A DNA stretch of 64,000 nt, taken from the NCBI RefSeq assembly GCF_037040815.1, contig NZ_CP146232.1:2784501-2848500 (forward strand), given 5' to 3'. The notes beneath the pieces were generated by a model. The model ran no database searches, had not been told where the DNA came from, and saw nothing but the letters and a program-made list of their open reading frames with translations. Source of the stretch: Pararoseomonas sp. SCSIO 73927 (lineage in GTDB: Bacteria > Pseudomonadota > Alphaproteobacteria > Acetobacterales > Acetobacteraceae). Shown in pieces: positions 8,913 through 44,838 of the stretch; the stretch's first letter is position 1; each line of letters starts with the position of its first letter. A program made the position numbers and the translations under genes.

Positions 8913-9740
8913 TCAGAAGATCTCAAGCTTGCGCCGGGCGGTCCGGAGCGAGAGCAGGCCGAGCAGGTTGACGACGAGGATGCACCGGCCGACGTAGTTG
9001 AGATCGTAGTAGGAGGGGAAGGCATCCCCGAACACGCCCTCGCGGATGCCCTCGTGCAGGCTGACCATCGGGTTCCACAGCAGGATTTCCCGGAAATGCG
9101 CGGGCAGCCAGTGAAGGGCGTAGAAGGCGCCCGAGAGCGGCATCGCGAGATAGGTGAGGGGGTGGACCAGCCGGTCCGTCGTCTCCCAGCGCGCCACCAT
9201 CGCGGCCACGCACATCGCGATACCGTTGCAGAGCATGAACATGAGGAGAAGGCAGAAGAAGACGAGGGCGGGGTTCGCCGGCCAGACGCTCGCCAGCCAG
9301 GCGCCGCCCGTCAGGACGATGAGGATCACGCCGGTGACGGAGACGGCCTCCAGCAGGTTGCGGGCCAGCAGCACGTCCGCCGGCGTCACCTGGCGGTGGA
9401 AAAGGAGAGTGAGGTTGGCGTGCAGCGCGCTGCCCGCCCGGTTGATGATGGCGCGGAACATGAAGAAGGGCACGTAGCCGACGAGGCTGAAGAGGAAGGG
9501 ATTGACCCCGCCCGGGATCGATCGCCCGTGTGCCGCGTGCAGCAGCCCGACCATGAGGCCGAGGAAGAGCGGCTCGAAGAACAGCCAGAGGAAACCGACG
9601 TTGTTGCGGCCGAAGCGCGTCTGCATCTCGCGCATGACGAGGGCGCCGATCACGCGGAGCTGGGTGGCGAAGCCCTCGATGATCCAGTGGCCCCGCTCCC
9701 GCCGGGCCGGCGGCGTGGGAACGAAGCCGATGTCGCTCAC
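8913..9740 (-). CDS. kpsM: Capsule ABC transporter permease KpsM
   Basis: A 275-residue membrane protein with about six hydrophobic segments and the sequence character of ABC-2 type polysaccharide permeases (MREMQTRFGRNNVGFLW near residue 36; WNPMVSLHEGIREGVFG near residue 215). It forms the channel for the polysaccharide with KpsT. The start is GTG 9740, which overlaps the TGA of the preceding lipoprotein gene as GTGA (9737-9740). A longer open frame upstream is only the shadow of that lipoprotein gene. Family and partner are clear. Confidence 0.9.
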   Translation of the reverse strand: MSDIGFVPTPPARRERGHWIIEGFATQLRVIGALVMREMQTRFGRNNVGFLWLFFEPLFLGLMVGLLHAAHGRSIPGGVNPFLFSLVGYVPFFMFRAIINRAGSALHANLTLLFHRQVTPADVLLARNLLEAVSVTGVILIVLTGGAWLASVWPANPALVFFCLLLMFMLCNGIAMCVAAMVARWETTDRLVHPLTYLAMPLSGAFYALHWLPAHFREILLWNPMVSLHEGIREGVFGDAFPSYYDLNYVGRCILVVNLLGLLSLRTARRKLEIF

Positions 9741-10243
9741 GGCCGGTAGACCGCTCCGCCGCGCAGGAGGGGGCGCGCCGCGACCCAGCCCTGGGCCGGG
9801 TCGTTGCAGTAGGTGGCGCCGGGCGCGCCGCCGGGAACGCCGGCGGAGCCGAACTGCACCTCGCGGCACTCGCGGCCGGAGGCGGCGTTGTACACGCGGG
9901 TGAGGCGGGCGGTGGTGACGCCCCCGCTGCCGGAGACGGTCTCGGCCTGGCCTTCCTGGGCGCGGGCGGCGAAGGCGGCGATGGGATCGGCCGCCCGCAC
10001 CGGCAGCACCACCCCCGTGGCCGGCGGGGGCGAGGTGGGCGCGGGCGCGAGGCCGATGGGGTTCCACCAGTTGCCCTGGCCCGGATCCGCCGTGCAGGCG
10101 GCCAGGGGGGCGGCCAGCGGCGACAGGACGGCGAGAAGCAGGGTGGCGCGGCGCGTGGCCGGCGGCTGGGATCGGGCCGGAACGGGCCTTGCGGTCGCCC
10201 CGGACGGCTCCGTGGCTGCCCCGCTGGGCATGGCGTGCGTCAT
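9737..10243 (-). CDS. Putative lipoprotein first in the kpsMTED operon
   Basis: A protein of 168 residues. After a 30-residue polar N-terminus comes a hydrophobic stretch ending in a lipobox (PLAAPLAAC, Cys near 50), so it is probably a lipoprotein. The mature part is Pro/Ala-rich, and its C-terminal third contains ASGRECREVQFG followed by a second Cys (YCNDPAQGW), a pattern seen at the C-terminus of small surface-antigen-like lipoproteins of Rhodospirillales. I cannot name the family. Its stop overlaps the kpsM start as GTGA, which ties it to capsule export; an accessory envelope role is inference. The start could also be ATG 10231. Confidence 0.65.
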   Translation of the reverse strand: MTHAMPSGAATEPSGATARPVPARSQPPATRRATLLLAVLSPLAAPLAACTADPGQGNWWNPIGLAPAPTSPPPATGVVLPVRAADPIAAFAARAQEGQAETVSGSGGVTTARLTRVYNAASGRECREVQFGSAGVPGGAPGATYCNDPAQGWVAARPLLRGGAVYRP

Positions 10244-10289: not shown

Positions 10290-12128
10290 ATGGTCCAGGC
10301 CCGATTCGCCGAGCCGCCGCTCGCCTTTCCGCCCGCGCTCCTCGCCCGCTGGCCGCACCTGCCCGCGTTCTGGCCGGAGCGCGAAGCGGTGCCGCACGGC
10401 ACGCCCGGCGCCCTCGCCGTGGCGGAGGAGGGCGGCGCCGCCACGGCCGGTGCCGCGCTGCCCTTCTCCCTCGCCCCCTTCGCGCCGCCGCGCTTCGCCG
10501 GCCGCAGCGCGCCGCCCCTGCTGCTGGCCGAGGGCGCCCCGCCCCTGGCGGAGGGCGAGGCTGAGGCCCTGGCCGCGCTGATCGCGCGCGGGCGGATCGG
10601 CGGCCCGCCCGGCCTGCCGGACCCGGGGGCGGCCGCCTTCGCCCTGGAGGCGCGGGCGGCGGCGCTGGTGCTGGACCCCTGCGACCCCGCCCGCGCGGGG
10701 GCGGCGCGGGCGGCCCTGGCCGCCGCGCGCGCCTCCGGCCTCCCCCTGCTCGTCGCGCGCCACCCCTTCGCGGACCGCGCCGCCGCGCCCGTGCTGGGGG
10801 GCATCGCGGGGGCCTGGACCCTGCCGCAGCCCCTCTCGCCCTGGACGCTGCTGGACGCGGCGGCGCGGCTGCACGGCGCCGACCCCCACACCGCGGCGCT
10901 GGCCGAGGCCGCCGGGGTGCCGCACGACCTGGCCGGGGCGCGGCTGCCGCCCTTGCTAGCCCGGCTGCGCGCCGCCGACCCCTTCCGCCGCCGCCCCTGG
11001 AGCCGGGCGGAGGGCTTGGCGCTGCTGGCGGACTGGGCGGCGGCCGAACGGTCCAACCGGGGCGTCTCCGCCTGCACCGGGATCGCGCGCTGGAAGCGGC
11101 GGCAGGTGGCCGCGCTGCTGGCGCATGAGGGCGGCGCGCCGGCCTTCGAGCCCAGCGCCGCCCGCGCCGCCGAACGCGCCCTCGCGGAGGGCGGCGCGGT
11201 GGTTGCCTGGGCGGCTTCTCTACCGGACGCGGAGGCGGCCGCGATCCGGCGCGGCGGGGTGCAACTGCGACTGCTGGAGGACGGCTTCATCCGCTCCCGC
11301 GGGCTCGGGGCGCGCTTCCTGCCCGGTGCCTCCTACAGCCTCGACGCGCGCGGCGCCTATTACGACCCGCGCCAGCCCTCCTCCCTGGAGGCGATCCTGG
11401 CGGAGGGGGACTTCCCGCCGGCGCTGCTGGCCCGCGCCGCCGCACTGCGGGCGGCGGTCGTGGCGCGCGGCATCTCCAAGTACAACCTGCGGACCGAGGC
11501 GGCCCTCCCGGCGGTCCCGGAGGGCCGGCGCGCGGTGCTGGTGCCCGGGCAGGTGGAGGACGACGCCTCCGTCCGCCTCGGCGGCGGCGCTATCCGCTCC
11601 AACCTCGACCTGCTGCGGGCCGTGCGGGCGGCGGAGCCGGAGGCGTTCATCCTCTACAAGCCCCACCCCGACCTGGAGGCGGGGTTCCGCCGGGGGCGCC
11701 TGCGGGCGGCGGACCTGGCCGGGCTGGCGGACGCCGTGGTGGGCGGCGTGCCCCTGCCCGCGCTGCTGCCGACGGTGGACGCGCTCCACACTCTCACCTC
11801 CCTCTCCGGCTTCGAGGCGCTGCTGCGCGGGGTGTCCGTGACATGCTGGGGCCAGCCCTTCTACGCCGGCTGGGGGCTGACGGAGGACCGTGCCCCCCTG
11901 CCACCCGGGCGGCGCGGCGCGGCGCGCACCCTGGACGAGCTGGTGGCCGCCGCCCTTATCCTCTACCCGCGCTACCTGGACCCGGTGACGCTGCTGCCCT
12001 GCCCCCCGGAGGTGATGCTGGACCGGCTGGACGAGCCGGAGGCCTGGCGCGTCTCCCCCCTGACCATTCACCGCGGCATCGAGGGCTTCGTCCGCGGGTT
12101 GCTGTCCCGGATCGGCGGCAGGCGCTAG
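10290..12128 (+). CDS. kpsC: Capsule beta-Kdo transferase KpsC-like
   Basis: A soluble protein of 612 residues. The C-terminal part shows the KpsC module clearly: LLEDGFIRSRGLG near residue 328, PGQVEDDASVRLGGG near 416, KPHPDLEAG near 457, and SGFEALLRGVSVTCWGQPFYAGWGLTED near 510 (given in parts: GFEALLRG, then FYAGWGLTED). KpsC adds Kdo residues to the lipid terminus of group 2 capsules. Escherichia coli KpsC (about 675 residues) has two full transferase modules. Here the N-terminal 230 residues look like an eroded second half of a first module (VLDPCDPARAG, ARHPFAD, LSPWTLLDAAARLHGADPH) without the EDGF part. The gene is divergent from the lipoprotein-kpsMTED operon with 46 bases between the starts. 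Confidence 0.88.
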   Translation: MVQARFAEPPLAFPPALLARWPHLPAFWPEREAVPHGTPGALAVAEEGGAATAGAALPFSLAPFAPPRFAGRSAPPLLLAEGAPPLAEGEAEALAALIARGRIGGPPGLPDPGAAAFALEARAAALVLDPCDPARAGAARAALAAARASGLPLLVARHPFADRAAAPVLGGIAGAWTLPQPLSPWTLLDAAARLHGADPHTAALAEAAGVPHDLAGARLPPLLARLRAADPFRRRPWSRAEGLALLADWAAAERSNRGVSACTGIARWKRRQVAALLAHEGGAPAFEPSAARAAERALAEGGAVVAWAASLPDAEAAAIRRGGVQLRLLEDGFIRSRGLGARFLPGASYSLDARGAYYDPRQPSSLEAILAEGDFPPALLARAAALRAAVVARGISKYNLRTEAALPAVPEGRRAVLVPGQVEDDASVRLGGGAIRSNLDLLRAVRAAEPEAFILYKPHPDLEAGFRRGRLRAADLAGLADAVVGGVPLPALLPTVDALHTLTSLSGFEALLRGVSVTCWGQPFYAGWGLTEDRAPLPPGRRGAARTLDELVAAALILYPRYLDPVTLLPCPPEVMLDRLDEPEAWRVSPLTIHRGIEGFVRGLLSRIGGRR

Positions 12129-12444: not shown

Positions 12445-12465
12445 GACTCCATTGGGAATTTTTCA

Positions 12466-12481
12466 TGGCACGGGCGTTGCT
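12466..12481 (+). promoter_or_regulatory. Sigma-54 (-24/-12) promoter of the PEP-CTERM gene
   Basis: TGGCACGGGCGTTGCT matches the RpoN consensus TGGCACG-N4-TTGCW at every fixed position. Transcription would begin near 12492, giving a leader of about 36 bases before ATG 12528 with AGGA at 12515-12518. An in-frame ATG at 12465 lies inside the promoter and can be excluded as the start. RpoN control with the PrsK/PrsR two-component system is established for PEP-CTERM genes in floc-forming and related bacteria, as far as I recall. Confidence 0.8.
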
Positions 12482-12527
12482 GTTGATCCTGTCGCTACCC
12501 CGTAACCCATCGACAGGAATGTTCAGC

Positions 12528-13271: not shown

Positions 13272-14522
13272 TCAGAACAGGACGGCGGGCGAATCCACTA
13301 CGGGCTGGTTGATCAGGCCGTGGTGCAGCCGCTGCGCCGCGGCCTCCACGGCCGCGTCCAGGCCGGGGCGCGCGTAGTACACGCCCCGCAGGTGAAGGCA
13401 GTGGGCGATGCCCCGCAGGAAGGCCTCCCGCAACTCCGGCTCCGGCGGGCGCCCCTCGGCCCAGAAGCTGTCCAGCGGGCCGCCATGGACCAGGCCCGGG
13501 ATCTTGTAGATCGCGTCGCCCAGCGCGTGGGTGGGTAGGTGGTCCAGGATGGCGCGCAGGCCGACGGTGCTGTTGATCGTCACCACGCCCTGCACGCTCT
13601 CGGTGATGGCGCCGAGGCTGCCGCCGCCGAGGTAGTGGACCCGGTCCGGCACCTTCGCCCGCTCCGCGATGCGCCGCACCCGCCGGCGCCAGTTCTTCAT
13701 CGCGGGGTCCAGCGGGTGGACCTTGACGAGGAGCTGCGCCTCCGGCGGCGCGTGGGCGGCGAAGGACCGCGTCACCTCCTCGATCGCCGTGTCGAGGTCG
13801 GGGTAGGCGGAGTAGGCGCGGACGGAGAAGTCCGTCTCCATCTGCATGGCCATGAGGAAGAGCGGCCCGCGCCCCTGCAGCCGCGACAGGATGCCGTTCG
13901 CCTCCCGGTTCGCGCGGCGTCGCGTAAGAATCCTGGACAGGGTGCCGAGATAGACCTGGATGGGGTGGTAGATCTGGTGGCTGCGGTAGCGCGGGAAGAA
14001 GCCCGGCAGCAGGGAGATGAGGTTGTAGGCCACGTCCAGCGCGGCCTGGTTGCGGAAGCTGTCGCGGTAGCGCTCGCCGATGTCGGGCGGGGGCAGGGTC
14101 TCCGCCAGGGCGATGATGGCGGCGGGGTCGCGGGGGAAGCGACTCTCCCGGTTCATCCCCTCCGCCTCGAAGGTGATCCAGTCCGGGCGGAGGTAGCCGA
14201 AATCGGTCGCCACCACGGCGATGCCGCGCGCCCGGGCCGCCGCGATGGCCTCCCGGTGGTAGAAGCGCTGCTCCCCGAGGAGGAGGATGTCGGTGATGCC
14301 GCGCTCCTCCAGGAAGCGCGCGATGAAGGCCGGCCAGTCCTCCGGCCGCCCCCGGTAGTCCAGCGCCCCGCCGCCGCGCCAGAAGAGCTTGTCGCCGAGG
14401 CAGAGGTTGATCCGGTGCACGCCGTGGCCGAGCGCGCGGAGCCGCGCGCCGAGCATGGGGAAGAAAGGACTGATCGGGCCCTGCAGGAACAGGAACTGCC
14501 GCCGATTCCCGGTGTTCGTCAT
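13272..14522 (-). CDS. kpsS: Capsule polysaccharide Kdo transferase KpsS-like
   Basis: A 416-residue soluble protein. Recognisable blocks of the KpsS/LipB capsule family are FLQGPISPFFPMLGARLRALGH at the N-terminus (in parts: FLQGP, FFPMLGARLRALGH), ITDILLLGEQRFYH, FGYLRPDWITFEAEGMN, LVKVHPLDP near 265 and a final VVTINSTVGLRAI. KpsS starts the poly-Kdo linker on the lipid terminus of group 2 capsules and works together with KpsC. The start at ATG 14522 gives the usual family N-terminus; the open frame further upstream runs into non-coding sequence. The gene is downstream of, and on the same strand as, the GT4-polyketide synthase-oxoamine synthase-formyltransferase run (106 bases from the formyltransferase), so it may be co-transcribed with the presumed lipid-anchor genes. 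Confidence 0.88.
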   Translation of the reverse strand: MTNTGNRRQFLFLQGPISPFFPMLGARLRALGHGVHRINLCLGDKLFWRGGGALDYRGRPEDWPAFIARFLEERGITDILLLGEQRFYHREAIAAARARGIAVVATDFGYLRPDWITFEAEGMNRESRFPRDPAAIIALAETLPPPDIGERYRDSFRNQAALDVAYNLISLLPGFFPRYRSHQIYHPIQVYLGTLSRILTRRRANREANGILSRLQGRGPLFLMAMQMETDFSVRAYSAYPDLDTAIEEVTRSFAAHAPPEAQLLVKVHPLDPAMKNWRRRVRRIAERAKVPDRVHYLGGGSLGAITESVQGVVTINSTVGLRAILDHLPTHALGDAIYKIPGLVHGGPLDSFWAEGRPPEPELREAFLRGIAHCLHLRGVYYARPGLDAAVEAAAQRLHHGLINQPVVDSPAVLF

Positions 14523-14628
14523 GGCCTCGGGCACGCCCGATCCATATGCAGCCCCGCCCGGCGGCGCAATGGCATGGGTTTGGAAGGCGGGGTTGCGCGG
14601 CGGGGGCGGGGGACCTCCGCGGGCAGGC

Positions 14629-15444
14629 TCAGGCCCTGATCCGCAGGGCCGCGCGGATGTCGGACAGGTCCAGCAGGCGCACCCCGCGCTGCCGCGCGGT
14701 GCGCAGGGCCGCGCGATCCGGGAAGGGCCGGTAGGGCAGGGGCGCCCCGGCGGGCGTTTCCGCTGCCGTGCCGGCCGCGAGGGCGGCGAGCACCTCACCG
14801 GCCAGGGGCACCGCCGCCCGGTGCAGCCGCCGCGCGGCCTCGGAGGCGGTGATGCCGGCCGGCAGGGCGACCTCGCGCTGCGCCAGGACCGCCCCGGCAT
14901 CGATCCGCGGCACGAGGCGGTGGATCGTGACGCCGTGGGCCGGCTCAGCCTCCATTTCCGCCCAGAAGGTCGGGATCGGGCCGCGGTGCCGGGGCAGCAG
15001 GGAGGGATGGACGTTGATCCCGCCCCCCGGGGCCAGGGCGATGGTGTCGGCGGAGAGGATGCCGTCGAAGTGGAAGGTCAGGATCAGGTCCGGCCGGGCG
15101 GCGCGCAGCGCGGCGTGGAAGGCGGGGCCGTTCACGTCCTCCACGGCGGCCACGGGGATGCCCCGCGCCCGCGCCCGCGCCGCAAGGGACCCTGCGCCCC
15201 GCGCCAGCGCGGTGGCGAAGCGCGGCAGGGCCATGTTCACCACGAGATAGGCGAGCAGCCGCGGCCCGGAGCGCCGGAGATGCCGCCAGCCCTGGCCCAG
15301 CACGCCGCCGACCGCGCGCCGATAAGGGTTGGAAAGGCCGAGCAGGACCACGGCGTCGCCATGGGCATCCAGGAACCTGGCGACGGCCTCGCTGCTCGCC
15401 GCGCTGCCGAGGGTGAGAAGGGCAACGCGGAGAGGGGCCGTCAG
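14629..15444 (-). CDS. Formyltransferase-family protein, probable CTG start
   Basis: About 271 residues of the formyl_trans_N fold. The catalytic block reads GGGINVHPSLLPRHRGPIP (Asn, His as in 10-formyl-THF-dependent transferases), and the conserved Asp follows in RIDAGAVLAQ. GTG 15351 would cut off the first beta strand and loop. The frame continues upstream as RVALLTLGSAASSEAVARF, a normal N-terminus for this fold, and no ATG, GTG or TTG precedes it. The only fitting start is CTG 15444, which overlaps the stop of the oxoamine synthase gene as CTGA. Such enzymes formylate amino groups of Met-tRNA, sugars or purine precursors. Here, behind an enzyme that makes amino-ketones, N-formylation of that amine is an attractive but unproven role. 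Confidence 0.75.
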   Translation of the reverse strand: MTAPLRVALLTLGSAASSEAVARFLDAHGDAVVLLGLSNPYRRAVGGVLGQGWRHLRRSGPRLLAYLVVNMALPRFATALARGAGSLAARARARGIPVAAVEDVNGPAFHAALRAARPDLILTFHFDGILSADTIALAPGGGINVHPSLLPRHRGPIPTFWAEMEAEPAHGVTIHRLVPRIDAGAVLAQREVALPAGITASEAARRLHRAAVPLAGEVLAALAAGTAAETPAGAPLPYRPFPDRAALRTARQRGVRLLDLSDIRAALRIRA

Positions 15445-16757
15445 CCCGCCACCTCGGCCGGTGCGACGCCCGCTGCCGTCTCCGCCACGATGTCGAGGGT
15501 GCGGTCGATCTGCGCCTCGGTGTGCGCGGCGGTGAGGAAGAAGCGCAGCCGCGCGGCGCGCTCCGGCACGGCGGGGAAGGTGATGGGCTGCACGTTCACC
15601 CCGCGCTCGAACAGCTCGGCGGAGAGGCGGCCGGCGCGGACGGAGGAGCCGGTCATCAGCGGCACGATGGCGTGCCCGGCGGAGGCCCCGGCATCCAGCC
15701 CGCGCGCCCGCAACCCGTCCCGGAAGCGGGCGGCGTTGGCGTTGAGCTTCGCGACCCGCCAGGGCTCCTCGTGCAGGATGCTGAGGGATTGCAGGGCGGA
15801 GGCCGCGAGGACCGGCGCGAGGCCGACGGAGTAGACGAAGCCCGGCGCCGTGTGCCGCAGCCAGTTGATCAGCTGCCGCCGCGCCGCGACGTAGCCGCCG
15901 CAGGAGCAGAGCGTCTTGGAGAGCGTGCCCATCCAGATGTCCACGCCCGCCGGGTCCACGCCCTGCAGCTCCGCGATGCCGTGGCCGGTGGCGCCGAGCA
16001 CGCCCATGGAGTGCGCCTCGTCCACCATCAGCCAGGCGTCGTGACGGCGGGCGATCTCGATGAAGCGGGCGAGGTCGGGCACGTCCCCGTCCATGGAGTA
16101 GTGGCCCTCGACGAGGATCAGGGCCCGGCCGGCGCCGCGGCGCGCGGCGGCCAGCTCCCGCTCCGCCGCCGCCGCGTCGTTATGCGCGAAGGCGATGCGG
16201 CGGGCGCCGGAGAGGCGGGCGCCCTCCACGCAGGAATTGTGGATCATCGCGTCGTGCAGGATCACGTCGCGCGGGCCCATCAGGTGGCCGATCACCGTCA
16301 CGTTCGTGGCGTGGCCGGAGACGAGGGTGATTGCGTCCTCCGCCCCGTAATGCGCGGCCAGCGCGCCCTCCAGCTCTGCGTGCAGCGGCCGCTCCCCCGA
16401 GACGACGCGGGAAGCGGAGGCGGAGACGCCGTGGCGCTCGATCGCGGCGTGGGCCGCGGCCTTCACGCGCGGATCGTCGTTCAGCCCGAGATAGTTGTAG
16501 GAGGAGAAGTTCAGGTACTCCTCGTTCCCGATCGTCGTGGTGGCGCCGGCCACGCCCTGGTGCGGGCGGAAGAAGGGGTTGGGAAGGTCGAGCGCCTCCA
16601 TCGCCGTCTTCAGCAGCTCGAAGTCGCGCAGCCCCGGCACGTCGCTGAAGGAGCGGCCGTCGCCGGCGCCGCTCTCCTCCTGCCGCGCACGGCGCTTGGA
16701 CAGGCGGTTCAGCAGCGCCAGGCGCGCGGTGGCGGAGAGGCCGAGACCCTGGTTCAA
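15441..16757 (-). CDS. Alpha-oxoamine synthase, RkpG-like
   Basis: A PLP enzyme of 438 residues in the group of KBL, BioF, HemA and serine palmitoyltransferase. The PLP lysine is Lys281 (GTLSKTLCSCGG); VDEAHSMGVLG and the N-terminal NYLGLNDDPRV are further marks. Enzymes of this group join an acyl thioester to an amino acid with loss of CO2, giving an alpha-amino ketone. It begins 24 bases after the polyketide synthase, which has no thioesterase, so it could release the chain. The combination recalls RkpG beside RkpA in Sinorhizobium capsule loci. A roughly 60-residue N-terminal extension before the catalytic fold is unlike BioF. Substrates cannot be read; the second enzyme of this type in the window (53803-55008) has different neighbours. 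Confidence 0.87.
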   Translation of the reverse strand: MNQGLGLSATARLALLNRLSKRRARQEESGAGDGRSFSDVPGLRDFELLKTAMEALDLPNPFFRPHQGVAGATTTIGNEEYLNFSSYNYLGLNDDPRVKAAAHAAIERHGVSASASRVVSGERPLHAELEGALAAHYGAEDAITLVSGHATNVTVIGHLMGPRDVILHDAMIHNSCVEGARLSGARRIAFAHNDAAAAERELAAARRGAGRALILVEGHYSMDGDVPDLARFIEIARRHDAWLMVDEAHSMGVLGATGHGIAELQGVDPAGVDIWMGTLSKTLCSCGGYVAARRQLINWLRHTAPGFVYSVGLAPVLAASALQSLSILHEEPWRVAKLNANAARFRDGLRARGLDAGASAGHAIVPLMTGSSVRAGRLSAELFERGVNVQPITFPAVPERAARLRFFLTAAHTEAQIDRTLDIVAETAAGVAPAEVAG

Positions 16758-16781
16758 GCGCGTGTCCTCATGCCCGCCAAT

Positions 16782-19700
16782 TTAGGCGGCGCCAGTTCCT
16801 TCCGGTAGGGTCCCTTCCGGTAGGGTCGCCGCGTCGGCCGGCGTCGGCTCCGGCGTCAGCGTGTCCGGGCCGGGCGTGGACGAGCCAGGCTCGAACTGCC
16901 CGAGCAGCGAGTTCAGCTGCGCCTCCCGCGCGCCGCCGGAGAGCCCTTCCACCATGCGCGCGGCAAGGCCCGCCACGGTCAGGTCCTCCGTTACGGCGGC
17001 GAGGGGCACGGCCATGCCGAGCCGCGCCTCCAGCGCCCCGCGCAGCTCCAGCCCGCCGAGGCTGTCCAGCCCCAGCCGCGCCACCGGCACGTCGGCCCCG
17101 ATGCTCTCCGGCGGCAGGCGCAGGATTCGGCCCAGCTCCTCCGCTCCGATCCGCGCCAGCAGGGCATGGGCCTCGGCGGGGGGCAGGGCGGTCAGGTGAG
17201 CGCGCATGTCCGCGATGTCGGCGTCCGTCTCCTCCGCCCGGCCGCGCAGCGCGGCGAAGGCCGGTTCCCGCAGCACGGGCAGGGCCGCGCCCGCGCGCTT
17301 CCAGGCCACGCGGGCGAGGGAAATCACGGGGTGGCCGGCGGCGATGAGGCCGGGCAGCGCCTCCAGCGCGTCCCGCGCCGCCATGGGCTCCACGCCCAGG
17401 CGGCGGGCGAGGGTGCGGGCCGTCTCCGCGTCGCGCGCCAGGATGCCGGCATCGGCGATGGGGCCCCACCCAACGGCGAGCGCCGGGCGGCCGCGCGCGC
17501 GGCGGCGGCGGGCCAGGGCCTCCAGCCCGGCATTGGCGGCCACGTAGTTCGCCTGGCCTGGGTTCCCGAAGGCCGTGGTGGCCGAGGAGAAGAGGAGGAA
17601 CAGGTCCAGCGGGTCCTCGGCCGTCAGCCGGTCCAGGTTCTCCGCCGCGACGAGCTTCGGGCCGAGAAGGGCGGCGAAGCGGGCGGCGTCCATGCTGCCC
17701 GCCGCGCCGTCGTCGAGCACGGTGGCGGCGTGGACCACGCCGGTGATCGGCCCCTCCGCCCGCAGTTCCGCCAGCAGTGCGTGGAGGGACATGCGGTGCG
17801 AGACGTCCGCCGCGTGCAGGCTGGCGCGCGCCCCGAGGGCCGCCAGCGCCGTCACGGCCTCCGCCGCGCCCGGCGTGGACGGGCCGCGGCGGGAGACGAG
17901 GGCGAGGCGTTCCGCGCCGTGGGCGGCGAGCCACTTGGCGCATTCCAGCCCGAAGCCGGAGGTGCCGCCGGTGACGAGGACCGTCCCGCCGCGGCGGGGC
18001 GCCCAGGCGGCGGGGCGCGCCGCCTCCTCGCGCGGGGGCAGGACGACGATCTTGCCGATGTGGCCGCTGGCCTGCAGCAGCCGGAAGGCGCCCTCCGCCT
18101 CCTCCGCCGTGCGGCGGGCATAGGGCAGGGGGCGGAAGTCGCCGGAGGCGAGGCGGCCGCGGATGGATTCCAGCAGCCGCGCCGCCTCGGCCGGGCGGGC
18201 CTTCGGCAGCTGGTCCACGTCCACGCCGAAATAGGTGACGTTGCGGCGGAAGGGGCGCACGGCGATGCGCCGGTCCTCCGCGTAGTCGCGCTTTCCGAGC
18301 TCGATGAAGCGGCCGAAGGGCTTCACCAGGGCGATGGAGCGCTCCATTGCCTCCCCGGCGAGCGAGTTCAGCACCACGTCCACCCCGTCCGCCCAGTGCC
18401 GGCGGAGCGCGTCGTCGAAGCCGGCCGCGCGGCTGTCCAGCACGAGGTCGGCGCCGGCGGCGCGCAGGAAGGCGCGCTTGGCCTCCGTGCCCGCCGTCAT
18501 CGCCACCTGCGCGCCCGCGGCCTGGGCCACCTGCAGGGCGGCCAGCCCCACCGCGCCGGCGCCGCCATGGATCAGCACGCGCTCCCCGGGCGCGATTCCC
18601 GCGCAGGTCTCCAGCGCGTAGACGGCCGTGAGGAAGGCGACGGGGATGGTGGCGGCTGCGGTGGAGGTCAGCCCCTCCGGGATCGGCGCCAGGGCATCTG
18701 CCCGGGTGAGCACTTGGCCCGCAAGCGCGCGCGGGGCGAAGCCGAAGACGCGCGTGCCGGTGTGGAAGGGCGCGCCGGGCCCGGCCTCCACCACCACGCC
18801 GGCGCACTCCATGCCCAGGCCCGCGCCCGCGAAGCCGTCCTTCAGCGTCTCCTCAGGCAGCAGCCCTTGCGCCCACATCAGGTCGCGGAAGTTCAGCCCC
18901 GCGGCCTCCACGCGCAGCCGCACCTCGCCGGGCCCCGGAGTGGGCAGCGGCTCCATCGGCTCCCAGGCGAGGGAGGCGAGGGCGCTGGGCTGGCGTACCG
19001 CCAGCCGCGCGGCCGGGCCGGGCTGCTGGCCCCGCTGCTGTCCGTGCGCCGCCCCGTGGAACAGGGTCTCCTGCGCGACGCGGGGCACGCGGCGGCTGGA
19101 AAGGCCCAGCAGAACCTCCGGCTCCGCCCCGGGCTGCAGCAGCTCCGGCACCAGCCGGCGGGCGGCCGCAGCGGGGGCGAGGGCGCCGTCCACCAGGACC
19201 CGCCGCGGCGACAGCTCCGGCATCTCGTTCGCCAGCACCCGGCCGAGGGCGCGCACGGCCTCGGCCGCCGCCGTCATCGCGCCGCCCTGGGCGACAAGGG
19301 TGAAGCCCGCGCAGGTCCCCGACGCGGCGGCGGCAATCTTGGTGATGCCGGCGAGGCTGGTGGCGAGCGGCGCCACCTCCGCCGGGCCGGCCGGGTTGGC
19401 AACCGCCACCACCGTCGCGCCCCGCAGCGCGCGGGGCGGCAGGGCGGAGGCGTCCTCCAGCCGGTGGGACTCCACCAGGACGCCGGACTTCGAGAGGGCG
19501 ACGGCCAGCGCCTCGCCCAGAGGAGCCGCGCCCGCATCGGCGAGGAGGACGAAGCGCCGCCCCGGCGCAGCGGCGGGAACCGCGGGGGACGGGGCCGGGC
19601 GCTGGGCGGCGACGAGAAGAGCGGCCCAGGGCGTGCAGCGGAGCGGCTCGGCCCGCGGCGCCGTCCAGCCCTCCGCCTCCAGGGCGTCGCGCCAGGCCGC

Positions 19701-22700
19701 GGCGCCGGGAGGAGTGGGCAGGGACCAGCTCTGCGGGTCCTGCCCGCGCACGAAATCCACCAGGCGGCCCGGCACCGGCTCCACCGCCAGCAGGGTCCCG
19801 CCCTCCGCCAGGGCGGCGGCAAGGCCGGGCAGGATGCCGGTGGCGACCCCCCCGCGCGCGCCGGGGTGCAGCCCGACGACGAGGTCCGCGACCACGGGCG
19901 GCGGGGCGCTGCCGGTGGGGTTCCAATCCACCGTCACCACCTCCGCCATGGGCTGGGCGGGGGGCGCGGGGCGCGTCTCGCCGGCCAGGACGTGGAGGAC
20001 CCGGCGGCCGGAGCGGGCGAGGCCGGCCGAGAGGTGCCGGGTGAGGGCGGCGGGGCCGAGGTCGAGCACGCGGAGCGGCCGGTCGGCCGGCCAGGCGGCC
20101 GCCACCGCCGCGGCGGCATCGGCCAGCACCTGACCCAGACGGTCGAAGGCGCCCGATTCCTCGGGAATCCGGAGGCGGGCGGAATCGGGCGGCAGGTGGC
20201 CCGCCAGGGCCTCCGGCAGCCGCTCCGTCGCCTGGGCGATCAGGGCGAGGTCCTGCGCCAGGGCGGGCCGCTCGATGAGGACGGAGCGCCAGATGTCCTC
20301 CGGCGAGGGCAGGTCCTCGGCGGGCAGCAGGCGCCAGCCCGCGCCCTCGGGGGCGGCAAGGCCGTCCTCCTCCAGCGCGCGCAGCATGGAGACGGCGTAG
20401 GGGGTGGCGGGCTGGATGGGGCCGTCCCCGCCGGCCGCGAAGCCGCGGGCCATCGCGGCGGCGACGTAGCCCTCCAGCAGCAGCGCGTACTCGGAAAGGT
20501 CCAGCGATTCGTCCCGCGCCCCGGCGGCGGCCAGGGCGAGGTCCAGCGCGCGCCCGGAATCCGGGGCGGGCAGGAAAGGGTCCAGGGCGGGCTGGTCCTC
20601 CAGCCGGAAGGCGGAGGCCTCCGCCGCCTCCGTGCGCCCGAGCCGGGCGCGCTGGAACCAGACGCCCTCGGCCAGCGCCACGGCGCGGCCCGCGGCGTCG
20701 CCAAGGACGAGCCGGGCCTCCGCCGCGCGGCTGCCGGCATGGGTCAGCGCTAGGGCAGCGCGGGTGGCGGGTGCCGCGCCGCGCCGCAGCACCAGCCGTT
20801 CGAACCGCACGGGCACCAGCGCGTCGCCCGGGATCTCGCCCAGGCGCTCCATGGCGGGGCGCTCCATGGCGGGGCGCTCCGCGCCGCCACGGTCGGTCAG
20901 CAGGCCGATCAGGCCCTGCATGGCGCCGTCCAGCCGCACGGGGTGGAGGAGGAAGCCCTCGTCGCCCGGTGCCGTCGCCGGCAGGTCCAGCGCCACCTCC
21001 GCCGACCGACCGGCCGGGTCGATCGCGACGTGCTGGACCGGGCGGAAGGCCGGGCCGTAATCCAGGCCGCAGCGGGCGGCCACGGCGTGCAGGGCGGGCT
21101 CGGACACGCCCCGGCCGCCCTCGGGCGCCGGGGGAAGCTCCGGCAGGGCCTCGGCGGTCGCCGGGCGCAGCAGGCCGCGCGCGTGCAGGGACCAGGCCTC
21201 GCCGCTCATGCGGCGGCGGGATTCCAGGCGGAAGGTGCCGTCATCGGCCAGGCGGAAGCGGACCTCCTGGCTGCCGCCCTCCCTGTCCCCGGCCGGGACG
21301 GGCAGGGGGCGTAGGATCTGGAAGGCGGAGAGCTCCAGCGCCTCCGCCTCCGGGAAGCGCAGCGCGGCGGCGGCCAGCGCCATCTCCGCCATGCCGGCGG
21401 CGGGCATCACCGCCTCCTCGCCCAGGCGGTGGTCGGCCAGCCAGGGCAGCAGGGCGGAATCCACGTTCCGCGTCCAGTGGGCGAAGCCCTCGGCCGGGTC
21501 GCTCTCGCGCCGGAAGCCCAGCAGCGGGTGGTCCAGCACGGGGTCGTGCAGGCGGTAGGCCTCGGGCGTATCCGGGTACCAGTGCCGCCGGCGGAGGTAA
21601 GGGGTGCGGGGCAGGCCGCGCCGCAGGGCGGGGCCGGCGAAGGCGGGCGCCCCGCGCGGATCGGCGCCCACGGCGATCGCGCGGTCGGCGATGCCGGGGA
21701 TCGGGTCGCCCGGCGCGTCGCGCTTGGAGAGGGTGGCAAGGACCGGCGCCTCGGCCTTCGCGGCGCGCAGGGCCTCCCGCAGGTAGGACTGCAGGATGGG
21801 GTGGGGGCCGATCTCGATCACCGGCCGCGCGCCGCGCCGCCCGGCCTCGGCCGCGGCGTCGGCGAAGCGCACGGGGGCGCGCAGGTTGCGCCACCAATAG
21901 GCGGCCTCCGCCGGCTCCTCCAGGAGCCCGCCGGTGACGGTGGAGAGGAAGGGCAGGCGCGGGGCGGCGGGGCGCAGCCCGGCGAGGGACTCGCGCAGCA
22001 CCCCCTCCACCTCGTCCATGGCGGCGGAGTGGAAGGCGTAATCGAGGTCCAGCGGGATGACCGTGTGCCGGTCCCGCTTCGCGGCGGCAACGAGGCGGGC
22101 CACCGCCTCCGCCGGGCCGGCGATCGTGAGGGCGCGCGGCGCGTTGCGGGCGGCGATCTCCAGCCCCGGGCCGCACTCGGCCAGCAGGGGCAGCGCCTCC
22201 TCCTCGCAGGTGTTGAGGGCGGCCATCCGTCCCTTGCCCCGCGTGCGCGCCTGGGCGGCCGAGCGGGCGACGATGAGGCGGGCGGCCCCGGGCAGGTCGA
22301 GGATGCCGGCGGCCAGCGCCGCGGCCACCTCGCCGACCGAGTGGCCGAGCACGAGGGCGGGGGTGATCCCCTCCCCGGCGAGTGCGGTGACGAGGCCGTG
22401 CTGCACGGCGAAGAGGGCGGGCTGGGCGACCTCCGTCGCGGCCAGGGCCTCGGCGGTGATGCCGTCGGCGAGGGCGCCGGCCACGGACCAGCCGAGGCGC
22501 GGCGCCAGCTCGGCATCCGCGGCCTCCACCGCCTCGCGGAAGGGGCGGGACCTCGCCATCGCCTCCCGCGCCATGCCTGGGAACTGCGATCCGTTGCCGG
22601 AGAAGGCGAAGGCCGGGCCGCCGGCCGATCCCGCGACGGTGGGGCCGACGCCCTGGACCCCGGCGGGCTCGCCCTCCGCGTAGGAGTCCAGCTGGGCCGC

Positions 22701-24290
22701 CAGGGAGGCGGCATCCCCGCGCATGACGAGGCGGTGCGGGTGCAGGTCGCGGTGGCGGGCCAGGCCGCGCAGCATCGCGGGCGCGTCCTCCGGCCGGGCG
22801 CGCAGGGCGGCGGACCAGGAGCGCGCCGCCAGGGGCAGCGCCTCGGAGGAGCGGGCGGAGATGACGAGAGGCGGCAGCGCCGCCTCCGGAGAGGTCTCGG
22901 GCGCATCCCGAGGCACGGCGGGCCTTGCGGCCACGGCCGGCGGCGCGGCGAGGAAGAGGGAGGCGTTGGTGCCGCCGAAGCCGAAGGAGTTCACCCCGAT
23001 CACGGGCGCGCGGCCGGGCAGCGCCTCCCGCGCCAGGGGCACGCGAATGTTCAGCGCCTCGAAGTCGATCCGCGGGTTCGGGGCGCCGAGATGCAGGTTG
23101 GGCGGGATCTCCCGCCGCTCCAGCATCAGCAGGGCCTTGATGAGGCCGGCCATGCCGGAGGCGGTTTCCAGATGGCCGATGTTGGACTTCACCGAGCCGA
23201 CGGGCAGCGGCGCCGCGCGGCCGCTCTCCGGCCCCGCCGAGAGCACGCTGCCGATCGCGGTGGCCTCCACCGGGTCGCCGGCCTGGGTGCCGGTGCCGTG
23301 CGCCTCGAAATAGGCCACGCGGGAGGGCGCCAGCCCGGCCTCGTCCAGGACCCGGCGGATCAGGGCGGCCTGGGCCTGGGGGTCGGGCAGGGAGAGGCCG
23401 ATGGAGCGGCCGACCGAGTTCACCCCGGCGGCCAGGATCACGCCGCGAATGGAATCGCCGTCCGCCAGCGCGGCGGCGAGGGGCTTGAGCACGACGGCGC
23501 CCGCGCCCTCGCCGCGCACGTAGCCGTCGGCGTCCGCCGAGAAGACGTGGCAGCGCCCCGTGGGGGAGAGCATGGAGGCGCGGGAGAAGCCGGTGAAGGG
23601 ATAGGGCGAGAGGAGGAGCTGCACGCCGCCCACCAGCGCCGCCTCCACCCGTCCGGCGCGGATCGCGTCCACGGCGTGGGAGAGGGCGACGAGGGAGGAG
23701 GAGCAGGCGGTGTCGACCGTCTGCGCCCCGCCGCGCAGGTCGAAGACGTTGGTGATCCGGTTCCCCAGGATGGAGAGGGTGTTGCCGGTCATGAAGTAGC
23801 GGTCGAGGCTCGCCGGGTCCGAGAGGCGGAGCTCTGCGTAATCCGTGGAGGAGCCGCCGACGAAGACGCCGATCTCCCGCCCCGCGACGGAGGCGGCGGG
23901 CCAGCCCGCATCCTCCAGCGCCTCGGAGACGACTTCCAGCAGGACGCGCTGCTGCGGGTCCGCCTCCGACACCTCGCGCGGGGAAAGGCCGAAATGGGCG
24001 GCGTCGAAGCCCGCGATGTCGCCGAGATGGCCGGCGGCGAAGGTGTAGGAGCGGCCGGGCTCGCTGCGGTTGGGGTGGTGGAACCAGTCCTGGCTGAAGC
24101 GGTCCCCCGGCAGGGTGGAGACGGCGTCCCGCCCTTCCGCGAGCAGGGTCCAGAACGAATCCAGGTCCGGCCCGCCGGGGAAGCGGCAGGCCGCGCCAAC
24201 CACCGCGATCGGCTCCGCGCGGGCCGGCCGCGCGCGCACGCCGGTCCCAGGCCCGGTCCCGGTCCGGGCGCGTGGCGGGCGGGCAGTCAC
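16782..24290 (-). CDS. Type I polyketide/fatty acid synthase, RkpA-like
   Basis: One highly reducing module in 2502 residues. KS: Cys196 (DTACSSSL), His331 (EAHGTGT), His373 (NIGHLE). AT: Ser651 (GHSVGE) and His754 in YAFHS, which suggests malonyl-CoA. DH: His954 (HRLGEEAVMP, where the usual second Gly is Glu) and Asp1121. About 1230-1530: a methyltransferase-like region whose SAM motif is degenerate (VLDLGPAALT). ER: HGGAGAVG at 1908. KR: TGGTSGFG near 2105, Tyr2249 (NYVAAN). ACP: Ser2410 (GLDSLGG). There is no thioesterase. A complete reducing set in one module means it can act repeatedly and make a saturated chain. Start GTG 24290 overlaps the stop of the GT4 gene as GTGA; the longer open frame before it is a shadow of that gene. 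Size, domains and kps context resemble RkpA. Confidence 0.92.
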   Translation of the reverse strand: MTARPPRARTGTGPGTGVRARPARAEPIAVVGAACRFPGGPDLDSFWTLLAEGRDAVSTLPGDRFSQDWFHHPNRSEPGRSYTFAAGHLGDIAGFDAAHFGLSPREVSEADPQQRVLLEVVSEALEDAGWPAASVAGREIGVFVGGSSTDYAELRLSDPASLDRYFMTGNTLSILGNRITNVFDLRGGAQTVDTACSSSLVALSHAVDAIRAGRVEAALVGGVQLLLSPYPFTGFSRASMLSPTGRCHVFSADADGYVRGEGAGAVVLKPLAAALADGDSIRGVILAAGVNSVGRSIGLSLPDPQAQAALIRRVLDEAGLAPSRVAYFEAHGTGTQAGDPVEATAIGSVLSAGPESGRAAPLPVGSVKSNIGHLETASGMAGLIKALLMLERREIPPNLHLGAPNPRIDFEALNIRVPLAREALPGRAPVIGVNSFGFGGTNASLFLAAPPAVAARPAVPRDAPETSPEAALPPLVISARSSEALPLAARSWSAALRARPEDAPAMLRGLARHRDLHPHRLVMRGDAASLAAQLDSYAEGEPAGVQGVGPTVAGSAGGPAFAFSGNGSQFPGMAREAMARSRPFREAVEAADAELAPRLGWSVAGALADGITAEALAATEVAQPALFAVQHGLVTALAGEGITPALVLGHSVGEVAAALAAGILDLPGAARLIVARSAAQARTRGKGRMAALNTCEEEALPLLAECGPGLEIAARNAPRALTIAGPAEAVARLVAAAKRDRHTVIPLDLDYAFHSAAMDEVEGVLRESLAGLRPAAPRLPFLSTVTGGLLEEPAEAAYWWRNLRAPVRFADAAAEAGRRGARPVIEIGPHPILQSYLREALRAAKAEAPVLATLSKRDAPGDPIPGIADRAIAVGADPRGAPAFAGPALRRGLPRTPYLRRRHWYPDTPEAYRLHDPVLDHPLLGFRRESDPAEGFAHWTRNVDSALLPWLADHRLGEEAVMPAAGMAEMALAAAALRFPEAEALELSAFQILRPLPVPAGDREGGSQEVRFRLADDGTFRLESRRRMSGEAWSLHARGLLRPATAEALPELPPAPEGGRGVSEPALHAVAARCGLDYGPAFRPVQHVAIDPAGRSAEVALDLPATAPGDEGFLLHPVRLDGAMQGLIGLLTDRGGAERPAMERPAMERLGEIPGDALVPVRFERLVLRRGAAPATRAALALTHAGSRAAEARLVLGDAAGRAVALAEGVWFQRARLGRTEAAEASAFRLEDQPALDPFLPAPDSGRALDLALAAAGARDESLDLSEYALLLEGYVAAAMARGFAAGGDGPIQPATPYAVSMLRALEEDGLAAPEGAGWRLLPAEDLPSPEDIWRSVLIERPALAQDLALIAQATERLPEALAGHLPPDSARLRIPEESGAFDRLGQVLADAAAAVAAAWPADRPLRVLDLGPAALTRHLSAGLARSGRRVLHVLAGETRPAPPAQPMAEVVTVDWNPTGSAPPPVVADLVVGLHPGARGGVATGILPGLAAALAEGGTLLAVEPVPGRLVDFVRGQDPQSWSLPTPPGAAAWRDALEAEGWTAPRAEPLRCTPWAALLVAAQRPAPSPAVPAAAPGRRFVLLADAGAAPLGEALAVALSKSGVLVESHRLEDASALPPRALRGATVVAVANPAGPAEVAPLATSLAGITKIAAAASGTCAGFTLVAQGGAMTAAAEAVRALGRVLANEMPELSPRRVLVDGALAPAAAARRLVPELLQPGAEPEVLLGLSSRRVPRVAQETLFHGAAHGQQRGQQPGPAARLAVRQPSALASLAWEPMEPLPTPGPGEVRLRVEAAGLNFRDLMWAQGLLPEETLKDGFAGAGLGMECAGVVVEAGPGAPFHTGTRVFGFAPRALAGQVLTRADALAPIPEGLTSTAAATIPVAFLTAVYALETCAGIAPGERVLIHGGAGAVGLAALQVAQAAGAQVAMTAGTEAKRAFLRAAGADLVLDSRAAGFDDALRRHWADGVDVVLNSLAGEAMERSIALVKPFGRFIELGKRDYAEDRRIAVRPFRRNVTYFGVDVDQLPKARPAEAARLLESIRGRLASGDFRPLPYARRTAEEAEGAFRLLQASGHIGKIVVLPPREEAARPAAWAPRRGGTVLVTGGTSGFGLECAKWLAAHGAERLALVSRRGPSTPGAAEAVTALAALGARASLHAADVSHRMSLHALLAELRAEGPITGVVHAATVLDDGAAGSMDAARFAALLGPKLVAAENLDRLTAEDPLDLFLLFSSATTAFGNPGQANYVAANAGLEALARRRRARGRPALAVGWGPIADAGILARDAETARTLARRLGVEPMAARDALEALPGLIAAGHPVISLARVAWKRAGAALPVLREPAFAALRGRAEETDADIADMRAHLTALPPAEAHALLARIGAEELGRILRLPPESIGADVPVARLGLDSLGGLELRGALEARLGMAVPLAAVTEDLTVAGLAARMVEGLSGGAREAQLNSLLGQFEPGSSTPGPDTLTPEPTPADAATLPEGTLPEGTGAA

Positions 24291-25696
24291 GAGCGGCCCG
24301 TGGTGCTGGTGCGGTTCAGGGCGGCCCCGCCCTCCCCGATGCGGCCGCGCAGGGCACGGGGGCGCAGCCAGGATGGCAGGGTGGCGCGCAGGAACCGCGT
24401 GCGCTCGGAGCGGCGGGCCAACCGGACCAGCACCTCGTCCACCCGGGCGAAGTGCTCGTCCCAGCGCGGCGCCTGCCAGCCGGCGAGGCGGGCGAGCTGC
24501 GCCTCCCGGGCCGGGCTGTCGGTCCTCATGTAGTCGAGGATGGCGGCGCGCCAGGCGATGCCGTCCAGCGGGTCCAGGTAGTCCGGCACCGCGCCGCCGA
24601 CCTCCCGCAGGGCCGGCAGGTCGGAGCAGATGGCGGGCACGCCGAGGGCCAGCGCCTCGGCGAGCGGCAGGCCGTAGCCCTCCGCAAAGGAGGGGAAGAG
24701 GAGGGCGCGGGCGCCGCGCAAGATCTCCCACACCTCGCGGTCCGGCACCTGCCCGACCTCCCGCACCGTGCCGCGGAGCGCGTCGCAGCGCTCCAGGATG
24801 TCCACCACGTTCTCGTTCTCCCAGCCGCGGCGGCCGACGACGAGGAGGTGGGGCGTGCGCTGGCCCATGCGCCGGGCCAGGTCGCGCCAGAGGTGGAGCA
24901 GGAGGAGGTGGTTCTTCCGCGGCTCGATGGTGCCTAGCACGACGAAGTAGGGCTCCGCCGGCAGGGCGGGGACGGGCGCTGCCGGCGGCTCGATCCCCAG
25001 CGGGGCGACCATGACGGGCGGCGGGATGTCCCGCACGCCGAGGTGCGGGCGCAGCGCCGCCTCGGTGTCGGCCGAGTTGACGATGATCGCGTCCGCGAGC
25101 GCCGCGGTGGTGGCGATCCGCCGCAGGTGGCGTTCTGCCTGGCCGGGCCGGGCGTATTCCGGGTGGGTGGCCGGGATCAGGTCATGGATCAGGGGCACGA
25201 AGGCGCAGCCGGCCTGGCGCATCTGCCGGATCGGGCGGTCCCGCTCCAGGGCGCGGTGGGAGACGAGGAGAAAGACCTTCGGGTCCGGCTCCTTCAGGCG
25301 CCGGTTCAGCTGGCGCTGGCCGAGCCCGCCCATGACCCGCCAGCGGAGGCTGGCGGCGAGGCGGCGGGCGCGGGCAGCGTCACGCCCGCCCGGATCGCTG
25401 TTCCCCCAGGCCCGGGCGAGCATGCCGACATAGCCCACCACGGCGCGCCAGGGCAGGGCCACGTAGTCCCCTGCCAGGGCCTGGGCGACGAAGGTGCAAC
25501 TGCCCTCCGGCATGGCCGCCCAGCGGCGGGCATAGGCCATCTCCACCCGGTCGATCCCGGAGGGCGCGACCTTTCCGCTGCAGGCGAGCAGGCGGGAGAT
25601 GTCGAGCACGGTGTGCGGCACCCCATGGGAGATTCCCTGGGGCGGTTGGCCCGCCGGCCGGACCTCGGGTCCTGAGATTTCCTCGCCGTAGGGCAC
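24287..25696 (-). CDS. GT4-family glycosyltransferase
   Basis: Up to 469 residues with two Rossmann-like halves. The C-terminal half carries FVVLGTIEPRKNH near residue 270, VGRRGWEN, and the donor-binding FPSFAEGYGLPLAEALALG (E-x7-E motif) near residue 355, which place it in GT4. Retaining enzymes of this family transfer sugars such as mannose, glucose or rhamnose to lipids or growing glycans. It is the first gene of the run to the polyketide synthase and is coupled to it by GTGA, so it may glycosylate the lipid made there or act on the capsule. GTG 25696 has AGGA seven bases upstream; a start nearer to the conserved TVLDISRLL (GTG about 25624) is possible. Confidence 0.85.
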   Translation of the reverse strand: MPYGEEISGPEVRPAGQPPQGISHGVPHTVLDISRLLACSGKVAPSGIDRVEMAYARRWAAMPEGSCTFVAQALAGDYVALPWRAVVGYVGMLARAWGNSDPGGRDAARARRLAASLRWRVMGGLGQRQLNRRLKEPDPKVFLLVSHRALERDRPIRQMRQAGCAFVPLIHDLIPATHPEYARPGQAERHLRRIATTAALADAIIVNSADTEAALRPHLGVRDIPPPVMVAPLGIEPPAAPVPALPAEPYFVVLGTIEPRKNHLLLLHLWRDLARRMGQRTPHLLVVGRRGWENENVVDILERCDALRGTVREVGQVPDREVWEILRGARALLFPSFAEGYGLPLAEALALGVPAICSDLPALREVGGAVPDYLDPLDGIAWRAAILDYMRTDSPAREAQLARLAGWQAPRWDEHFARVDEVLVRLARRSERTRFLRATLPSWLRPRALRGRIGEGGAALNRTSTTGRS

Positions 25697-44805: not shown

Positions 44806-44838
44806 GTGATCGACTCCTCGCCCGGACCTTGCGGCCTC

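Follow-up and report, generated by a model that had tools for sequence, protein, structure and literature searches.

A polyketide synthase and alpha-oxoamine synthase gene pair beside kpsS in Pararoseomonas sp. SCSIO 73927: comparison with related capsule loci and a possible sphingoid-type acceptor of Kdo

To our knowledge, the role of the polyketide synthase (PKS) and the alpha-oxoamine synthase (AOS) encoded in rhizobial and Burkholderia capsule loci has been an open question since the 1990s (Kiss 1997). The present analysis concerns such a gene pair in a stretch of 64,000 nucleotides (nt) of Pararoseomonas sp. SCSIO 73927 (contig NZ_CP146232.1, positions 2,784,501 to 2,848,500; hereafter the window), in which, on the minus strand from position 25696 downwards, genes for a GT4 glycosyltransferase, the PKS, the AOS, a formyltransferase and KpsS follow each other (Table 1). 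In Escherichia coli, KpsS adds 3-deoxy-D-manno-oct-2-ulosonic acid (Kdo) to the glycerol of (lyso-)phosphatidylglycerol (PG) (PMC7694667), and the Vi capsule of Salmonella Typhi is an example of an ABC-exported capsule that can use another lipid (PMC12220298). For the window, we hold it to be moderately probable that the acceptor of KpsS is a sphingoid-type lipid, N-formylated and bearing a head group, which would replace lyso-PG.

In the rkp-1 region of Sinorhizobium meliloti, genes for PKS, AOS, a short-chain dehydrogenase/reductase (SDR), a PF00884 protein and KpsS are arranged in this order on one strand. The unit of the window likewise ends in KpsS, and the KpsS of both belong to the same clade; the direct link to KpsS, which a preliminary description of the locus had stressed, is therefore not peculiar to the window. 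Between AOS and KpsS, S. meliloti possesses the SDR and a frame of the lipoteichoic acid (LTA) synthase type (PF00884, missing from the gene table of the record), whereas a formyltransferase is situated there in the window, where furthermore the GT4 gene precedes PKS. The names rkpA, G, H, I and J are taken here to apply to these genes by their position in the record of strain Ak57. Phosphoglycerol is expected to come from an enzyme of the LTA synthase type. Going by the title of Fraysse 2005, S. meliloti 1021 reportedly possesses a Kdo capsule with a phospholipid anchor; this anchor is said to be phosphoglycerol with a hydroxy-C28 chain, which would fit well.

The plasmid pII of Paraburkholderia dioscoreae, which together with genome G270 stands in here for the wcbO-T segment of Burkholderia capsule I, carries genes for a KpsS-like protein, an SDR, an LTA-synthase-type protein, PKS, an LpxC-like protein, AOS and a GNAT protein, an order which we take to be that of wcbO-P-Q-R-S-T. 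It differs from the window by the LpxC-like deacetylase between PKS and AOS and by the GNAT in the place of the formyltransferase. Homology of wcbR and rkpA is stated in PMC3908369. On a Pseudomonas plasmid (locus L089), PKS-AOS faces genes for a PhyH protein, a KpsC-like protein, a GNAT, an LTA synthase, an SDR, KpsS and KpsC, accompanied by KpsF, KdsB and KdsA. Group 2 capsules of the E. coli K5 type, with their (lyso-)PG terminus, have KpsS, KpsC and KpsMTED in common with the window.

A product is known for PfSgaA and PfSgaB of Pseudomonas fluorescens MYb115, a two-gene system of PKS and AOS like the pair in the window: the formation of C24-C28 sphinganines depends on both, SgaB has a strong preference for L-serine, and SgaC, an SDR, is the proposed reducer of the ketone (PMC12134224). 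Compounds heavier by 154 Da are described as 'most likely' phosphoglycerol sphingolipids (PMC12134224). In MYb115, AOS and SDR are separated by 25 locus-tag numbers, which is also their offset in L089, where four genes (PhyH, KpsC-like, GNAT and LTA synthase) are situated between them, the likeness of the two loci being one of locus-tag offset. As far as listings and abstracts could tell, most subscription papers being outside the search, no paper was found that joins SgaAB chemistry to capsules.

Searches with Pfam and NCBIfam confirmed the gene set of the preliminary description, i.e., a reducing single-module PKS without thioesterase, AOS, formyltransferase and KpsS; its title had left out the GT4 gene, and two gene starts had to be moved (PKS to 24290 from 24731, KpsS to about 14534 from 14900). 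The resemblance to rkpA and rkpG proposed there was borne out as well, as the AOS is 52% identical to that of S. meliloti over 89% of its length, the best segment of the PKS is 41% identical (35-41% in more distant loci) and the order is shared. In the PKS (2,502 amino acids, aa), the motifs of KS, AT, ER, KR and ACP were found; the strict DH pattern was unmatched, the DH His and Asp regions being readable by eye. Since no thioesterase or other release domain of the PKS was matched by Pfam, the AOS is the natural off-loading enzyme, which agrees with the earlier view that it is able to release the chain. With a reducing PKS of this kind directly before AOS, the pair is of the RkpA/RkpG type, like SgaAB and WcbR/WcbT. 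The AOS, a member of the BioF/Kbl/SPT superfamily (Pfam/NCBIfam), is 98% identical to the AOS of P. indoligenes SG15 and 34-36% identical to two other AOS-like genes matched in its own genome (5.59 Mb).

The distribution of these genes was studied in 397 Pseudomonadota genomes, with contingency, SDR and capping counts read by hand. AOS (E<=1e-90) is present in 26 of them, the Capsule_synth domain PF05159 (E<=1e-15) in 80, and both in 20. All 18 genomes with an AOS match of at least 400 bits, a cut-off set after the data had been seen, possess PF05159 (own genome excluded; G270 only at 1.3e-17); they belong to ten families, and the corresponding figure for the other genomes is 61/378 (p 4.5e-14, a value which, like the other co-occurrence p values, takes no account of shared ancestry). 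In 12 of the 19 strong-AOS genomes, own included, one contig carries AOS and a PF05159 gene at most 15 kb apart. An LTA-synthase profile matched 12 of the 18 strong-AOS genomes; among controls with capsule genes but without AOS, the figure is 6/54 (p 1.2e-5; 6 of 60 such genomes were left out). In 11 of the 12, the LTA-synthase-type gene is situated within about 4 kb of a PF05159 gene; one of the 12 matches, in G095, holds a stop. Of the 19, all except G000, G353 and G215 possess an RkpH-like SDR at the AOS or kps locus (16/19). Concerning the relatives of the PKS-AOS pair (the best 80 of 324 loci from one scan; 81 with the window), 66 loci offer at least 4.5 kb of sequence after AOS, and kpsS is present within that distance in 47, and kpsS or kpsC anywhere in the available sequence in 52. 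In loci of Neoroseomonas and Marinobacterium, genes for LTA synthase, SDR and KpsS stand beside the formyltransferase.

The strongest single argument for a differing acceptor is the split of KpsS itself. A tree was built from 67 rows, of which 43 belong to AOS-positive loci or genomes and 24 to AOS-negative ones. The sample drew on the window, 20 other stretches, 24 of the 60 AOS-negative genomes and 18 of those 50 loci in the set of 80 that possess kpsS. All 43 AOS-linked rows (39 loci) fall, together with four others, to the same side of a branch with support 98/90. The AOS label changes twice on this tree vs a mean of 19.9 after shuffling, and none of 500 shuffles was as low. With KpsS of E. 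coli (strain KE47, known here from its sequence alone) and Citrobacter added, the branch holds at 97/86, and both fall outside it among the AOS-negative rows; the window thus carries an RkpJ-clade KpsS near PKS-AOS, together with a KpsMTED-type exporter, and not a KpsS of the E. coli kind. The four other rows on the AOS side (G263 and three genomes of family f25) all possess an LTA-synthase-type match with the gene near kpsS, vs 0/20 outside the branch, and all four possess a serine palmitoyltransferase (SPT), 49-54% identical to that of the window, vs 1/20 outside. With one exception (G103), the KpsS split thus tracks whether a genome can make a sphingoid base, be it through PKS-AOS or through SPT. 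Scores of the NCBIfam KpsS model, all below its cut-off of 600 bits, are 181.7 for the window, 192.6 for S. meliloti, 270.8 for the Pseudomonas plasmid, 271.0 for Paraburkholderia, 281.5 for f25, 345.5 for control G252, 380 for Citrobacter and 396 for E. coli. Solved structures yielded no match for the KpsS of the window.

Within 800 bp after AOS, the 81 loci contain a formyltransferase (37), a GNAT of a second kind, GNAT2 (17), or neither (27, some of which are contig ends); formyltransferase and GNAT2 occur together at no single AOS. GNAT2 measures about 375 aa, has a weak Pfam match or none, and is modelled as a tandem GNAT (pLDDT 83, a score of model confidence). Over nearly its full length it is homologous to the GNAT of a sphingolipid locus elsewhere in the window (hhalign probability 100, 34% identity). 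The formyltransferase is regarded as a candidate amine-capping enzyme of the lipid on the basis of its sequence and mainly because it replaces this probable sphingoid N-acyltransferase at the same place. It has the PurN/Fmt/ArnA fold, with a Formyl_trans_N domain carrying the N, H and D residues, and its N-x-H and D regions (NVHPSLLP, DAG) align with ArnA. Four genomes of one genus in family f2 (G028, G137, G143, G221) have the formyltransferase beside SDR and kpsS, distant from PKS-AOS, and in a fifth (G155) it lies between AOS and SDR-kpsC. In total, 11 of the 19 strong-AOS genomes show a formyltransferase (7, including G362 by Pfam) or a GNAT (4) in the stretches read. Eight open reading frames (ORFs) near AOS that were searched with Pfam comprised one formyltransferase (that of G362), two NusG-like proteins and no further capping enzyme.

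Taken together, the following pathway may be proposed. The PKS would build a long saturated chain on its acyl carrier protein (ACP), and condensation with an amino acid by the AOS (in Pseudomonas, the counterpart uses serine) would release it as a 3-keto sphingoid base. The neighbouring formyltransferase would N-formylate the amine, which sister lineages would N-acylate with GNAT. A polar head would be added; in many relatives this is probably phosphoglycerol from the LTA-synthase-type enzyme in the RkpI position, whereas in the window it may be a sugar transferred by the GT4 enzyme. The resulting single-chain lipid, similar to lyso-PG, would accept the first Kdo from the RkpJ-clade KpsS, whereupon KpsC and the capsule enzymes would extend the chain and KpsMTED would export it. 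In shape, a single-chain base with phosphoglycerol comes close to lyso-PG. Gene content, catalytic motifs, co-occurrence, neighbourhoods and the tree are results from sequence, and the product of SgaAB in Pseudomonas is established by experiment; what we infer is the lipid product in this strain, its formylation, its head group and its use by KpsS.

The preliminary description had suggested that KpsS acts directly on the amino ketone set free by AOS instead of on lyso-PG. Its direction, a PKS-AOS lipid as acceptor, agrees with the co-occurrence, the KpsS tree and the neighbourhoods of LTA synthase, SDR and KpsS, whereas the bare amino ketone, unreduced and with a formyltransferase acting elsewhere, is quite unlikely: the counterpart SgaAB makes sphinganines, many relatives carry enzymes of the ketone-reductase, amine-capping and phosphoglycerol-transferase types (the RkpH-like SDR in 16 of the 19 genomes among them), and the formyltransferase lies between AOS and KpsS, where others have the sphingolipid-type GNAT. 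It would be in keeping with a bare ketone that the own genome has neither a local SDR orthologue nor an LTA-synthase-type match; however, its 52 SDR matches could act in trans. It is less probable that the substrate of the formyltransferase is instead an amino sugar, in the capsule or at the stage of its nucleotide precursor, only PKS and AOS being concerned with the lipid. Its nearest solved relatives are ArnA and then sugar N-formyltransferases; on the other hand, it follows AOS in 37 of the 81 loci, pairs with SDR-KpsS in another genus, and the ORFs scanned at 1-32 kb, a part of those present, included none recognisable as a gene for amino-sugar synthesis. The lipid could also be a free membrane or secreted sphingolipid, its proximity to the capsule genes reflecting a clustering of envelope genes and KpsS using lyso-PG. 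This is unlikely given the 18/18 co-occurrence of strong matches, which includes genomes with AOS and kps on different contigs, and the separate KpsS clade; rkp-1 is moreover reportedly required for secretion of the Kdo capsule, according to the title of Muller 2009. A very improbable explanation is that the lipid serves as a cofactor of the export machine or as a carrier in the inner membrane, not bound covalently to the capsule. It would produce the same co-occurrence but leaves the split in KpsS, the enzyme in contact with the acceptor, unexplained, and the S. meliloti capsule is said, by titles, to carry a phospholipid anchor.

Several observations weigh against a formylated, head-bearing sphingoid acceptor of KpsS, and part of them favour a free sphingolipid. 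Six of the 26 AOS-positive genomes lack PF05159, all with weaker matches (325-386 bits; a seventh weak genome, G067, has it), and 14 of the 66 loci show no kpsS or kpsC in the available sequence. The lipids of MYb115 were found free and are described as products of a secondary-metabolite cluster (PMC12134224), the main text of which contains no mention of capsul, Kdo, rkp or LTA synthase; the +154 lipids imply a free amine, so that capping is not universal. Concerning the strong-AOS genomes, 7 of the 19, own included, are without an LTA-synthase match, and for 8 of the 19 the stretches read revealed no capping enzyme. Besides the shared ancestry that the p values disregard, the KpsS split draws on few independent lineages, f25 being counted three times. 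At E<=1e-20 the own genome yielded no LTA-synthase-type match, and a clear orthologue of the RkpH-type reductase is lacking too, the best match (42%) being away from the locus. Because of these two absences, any assignment of the head group and the oxidation state of the base in this strain is tentative, and without an LTA-synthase-type match the locus is a variant of the five-gene rkp-1 form and not a complete example of it. Finally, canonical sphingolipid genes 18-37 kb away could provide the anchor base in place of the PKS unit.

Two candidates for the absent enzymes were rejected. The gene sdr1 (25700-26779, plus strand) encodes a generic SDR, 28th of the 52 own matches, and is not the missing RkpH-type reductase; it precedes GT4 in three near relatives (L004, L008, L011) without a KpsC-side SDR. 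An SDR of the RkpH/SgaC type is absent from the unit of the window and present in the sister loci L005, L006, L007 and L062. The lone PF00884 match of the own genome is arylsulfatase-like and was not accepted as an LTA synthase.

Concerning transcription, the preliminary description had assumed one unit. The genes from GT4 to formyltransferase are indeed closely packed: the GT4 stop and the GTG of PKS share 4 nt, 24 nt separate PKS from AOS, and the formyltransferase is open in frame back to a CTG that overlaps the AOS stop and is its putative start codon. The membership of kpsS is doubtful, since a gap of 94 nt with a promoter-like element precedes it, although read-through is possible. The element reads ATTGCGC-N15-CATATG and lies 8 nt ahead of the kpsS GTG. 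Its pattern (ATTG and three bases, 13-17 nt, CATATG or a near form, and GTG 8-9 nt further) is present in 10/10 gaps of the window and nine near relatives vs a shuffle mean of 0.006, the pattern having been written and the ten gaps chosen after 38 gaps between formyltransferase (or GNAT2) and kpsS had been read. It was found in none of 20 other gaps; outside that comparison stood eight gaps of the Falsiroseomonas type, which contain TTGACA (8/8 vs a shuffle mean of 0.13), followed by GGCTATG in seven. Of the remaining 20 gaps, 4 contain TTGACA, 7 (L025, L039, L047, L048, L053, L057, L065; 7 of all 38) leave 0-26 nt between the formyltransferase stop and the core motif of KpsS, and 9 show neither. 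A generic scan gave no sigma-70 promoter or terminator consensus. Owing to the conserved element, kpsS probably has its own promoter in this lineage, with a transcript that is perhaps leaderless; such a promoter, which the preliminary description had itself named as counter-evidence, weakens the operon claim, not the functional link. In two f54 genomes, a NusG-like gene directly follows AOS (L132:9508-10029, L134:13876-14391), which could encode an antiterminator of the unit.

Among the 49 loci with over 1.5 kb of sequence upstream of PKS, 12 distant loci having been removed by hand beforehand, all but one possess a GT4 relative there (48/49), and the enzyme is a candidate transferase of a head-group sugar. 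A GT4 relative is also present in a genome of the same family that is AOS-negative; its position there, between kpsS and the LTA-synthase gene (L162:3325-4551), ties GT4 to the anchor pathway. Further enzymes occur beside AOS in some loci: an LpxC-like deacetylase between PKS and AOS (L088:12938-13852, L141:8469-9380) with a GNAT after AOS, suggesting a possible deacetylation and re-acylation of the base, and a PhyH-type dioxygenase (L089:15378-16421, L083:11458-12366), which could hydroxylate the chain.

The second route to sphingoid bases in the genome is a separate locus at 43633-63129, 18-37 kb from the PKS unit, with genes for SPT, ACP, GNAT, two LptF/G-type permeases, a CDP-alcohol transferase, an epimerase-type reductase and an AMP-binding enzyme. 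The set of SPT, ACP, LptF/G, reductase and AMP-binding enzyme is presumably that of Caulobacter sphingolipids, and by analogy with this gene set the GNAT would be a ceramide synthase; solved structures yielded no match for it. The AOS of the PKS unit, 34% identical to the SPT of this locus and without the stand-alone ACP that accompanies an SPT, was rejected as the ordinary SPT of the strain, which has its separate SPT-ACP locus at 53.8-55.3 kb. As a side observation, three f25 loci (L159, L160, L161) and L162 possess an LTA-synthase-type gene near kpsS and an SPT but no AOS of the PKS-AOS type, and perhaps make the same anchor from ordinary sphingoid bases.

The remaining capsule genes of the window lie beyond kpsS (Table 1). 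The first 300 residues of KpsC matched nothing in the searches made, and KpsC possesses one Kdo-transferase domain instead of two as in E. coli group 2, so that a linker of alternating Kdo linkages, as made by two-domain KpsC, is unlikely. The Pseudomonas plasmid locus encodes a second KpsC-like protein with three Capsule_synth stretches (L089:16411-18540). Between kpsC and kpsS, a gene for a PEP-CTERM protein is found (12465-13151), a place which in several relatives is occupied by an SDR. An Rfam scan gave no matches.

Table 1. Position (in the window), strand and basis of assignment of the features discussed
Feature	Position	Strand	Basis
KpsD/Wza-like outer-membrane export protein	5348..7108	-	PF02563, SLBB
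KpsE-like protein	7092..8288	-	position alone; without Pfam match
KpsT-like ABC ATPase	8245..8895	-	PF00005
KpsM-like ABC-2 permease	8913..10067	-	PF01061
KpsC, single recognisable Kdo-transferase domain at residues about 300-567	10290..12128	+	domain searches
KpsS, RkpJ-clade beta-Kdo transferase	13272..14534	-	PF05159 E 2.1e-69; NCBIfam KpsS 181.7 bits (cut-off 600); tree
Promoter-like element before kpsS	14543..14570	-	pattern common to window and nine near relatives
Formyltransferase	14629..15444	-	PF00551 E 4.8e-20; CTG start inferred
AOS, RkpG/WcbT/SgaB type, predicted to release the chain with an amino acid	15441..16757	-	Pfam/NCBIfam
Single-module PKS, RkpA/WcbR/SgaA type, KS-AT-DH-ER-KR-ACP, iterative-type	16782..24290	-	Pfam domains
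GT4 glycosyltransferase, first gene of unit	24287..25696	-	Pfam PF00534 E 2.7e-17
Sphingolipid-locus GNAT, homologue of GNAT2	43633..44805	-	hhalign
SPT-like AOS of sphingolipid locus, outside PKS unit	53803..55008	-	ACP at 55011-55346

On a wider scale, we regard it as evenly balanced whether there is a class of Kdo capsules in Pseudomonadota (rhizobia, Burkholderia, Pseudomonas, Acetobacteraceae and others) that is anchored by a phosphoglycerol or glycosyl sphingolipid from PKS-AOS or SPT and served by its own KpsS clade, the phosphoglycerol sphingolipids of Pseudomonas being anchor precursors and the Roseomonas-type version being N-formylated. If a sphingolipid-type lysolipid is the capsule anchor, the puzzle of PKS and AOS in these loci would have one concrete and testable answer, the genes for LTA-synthase-type protein, SDR, and GNAT or formyltransferase that accompany kpsS would be explained, and Kdo capsules would differ among themselves in their lipid terminus.

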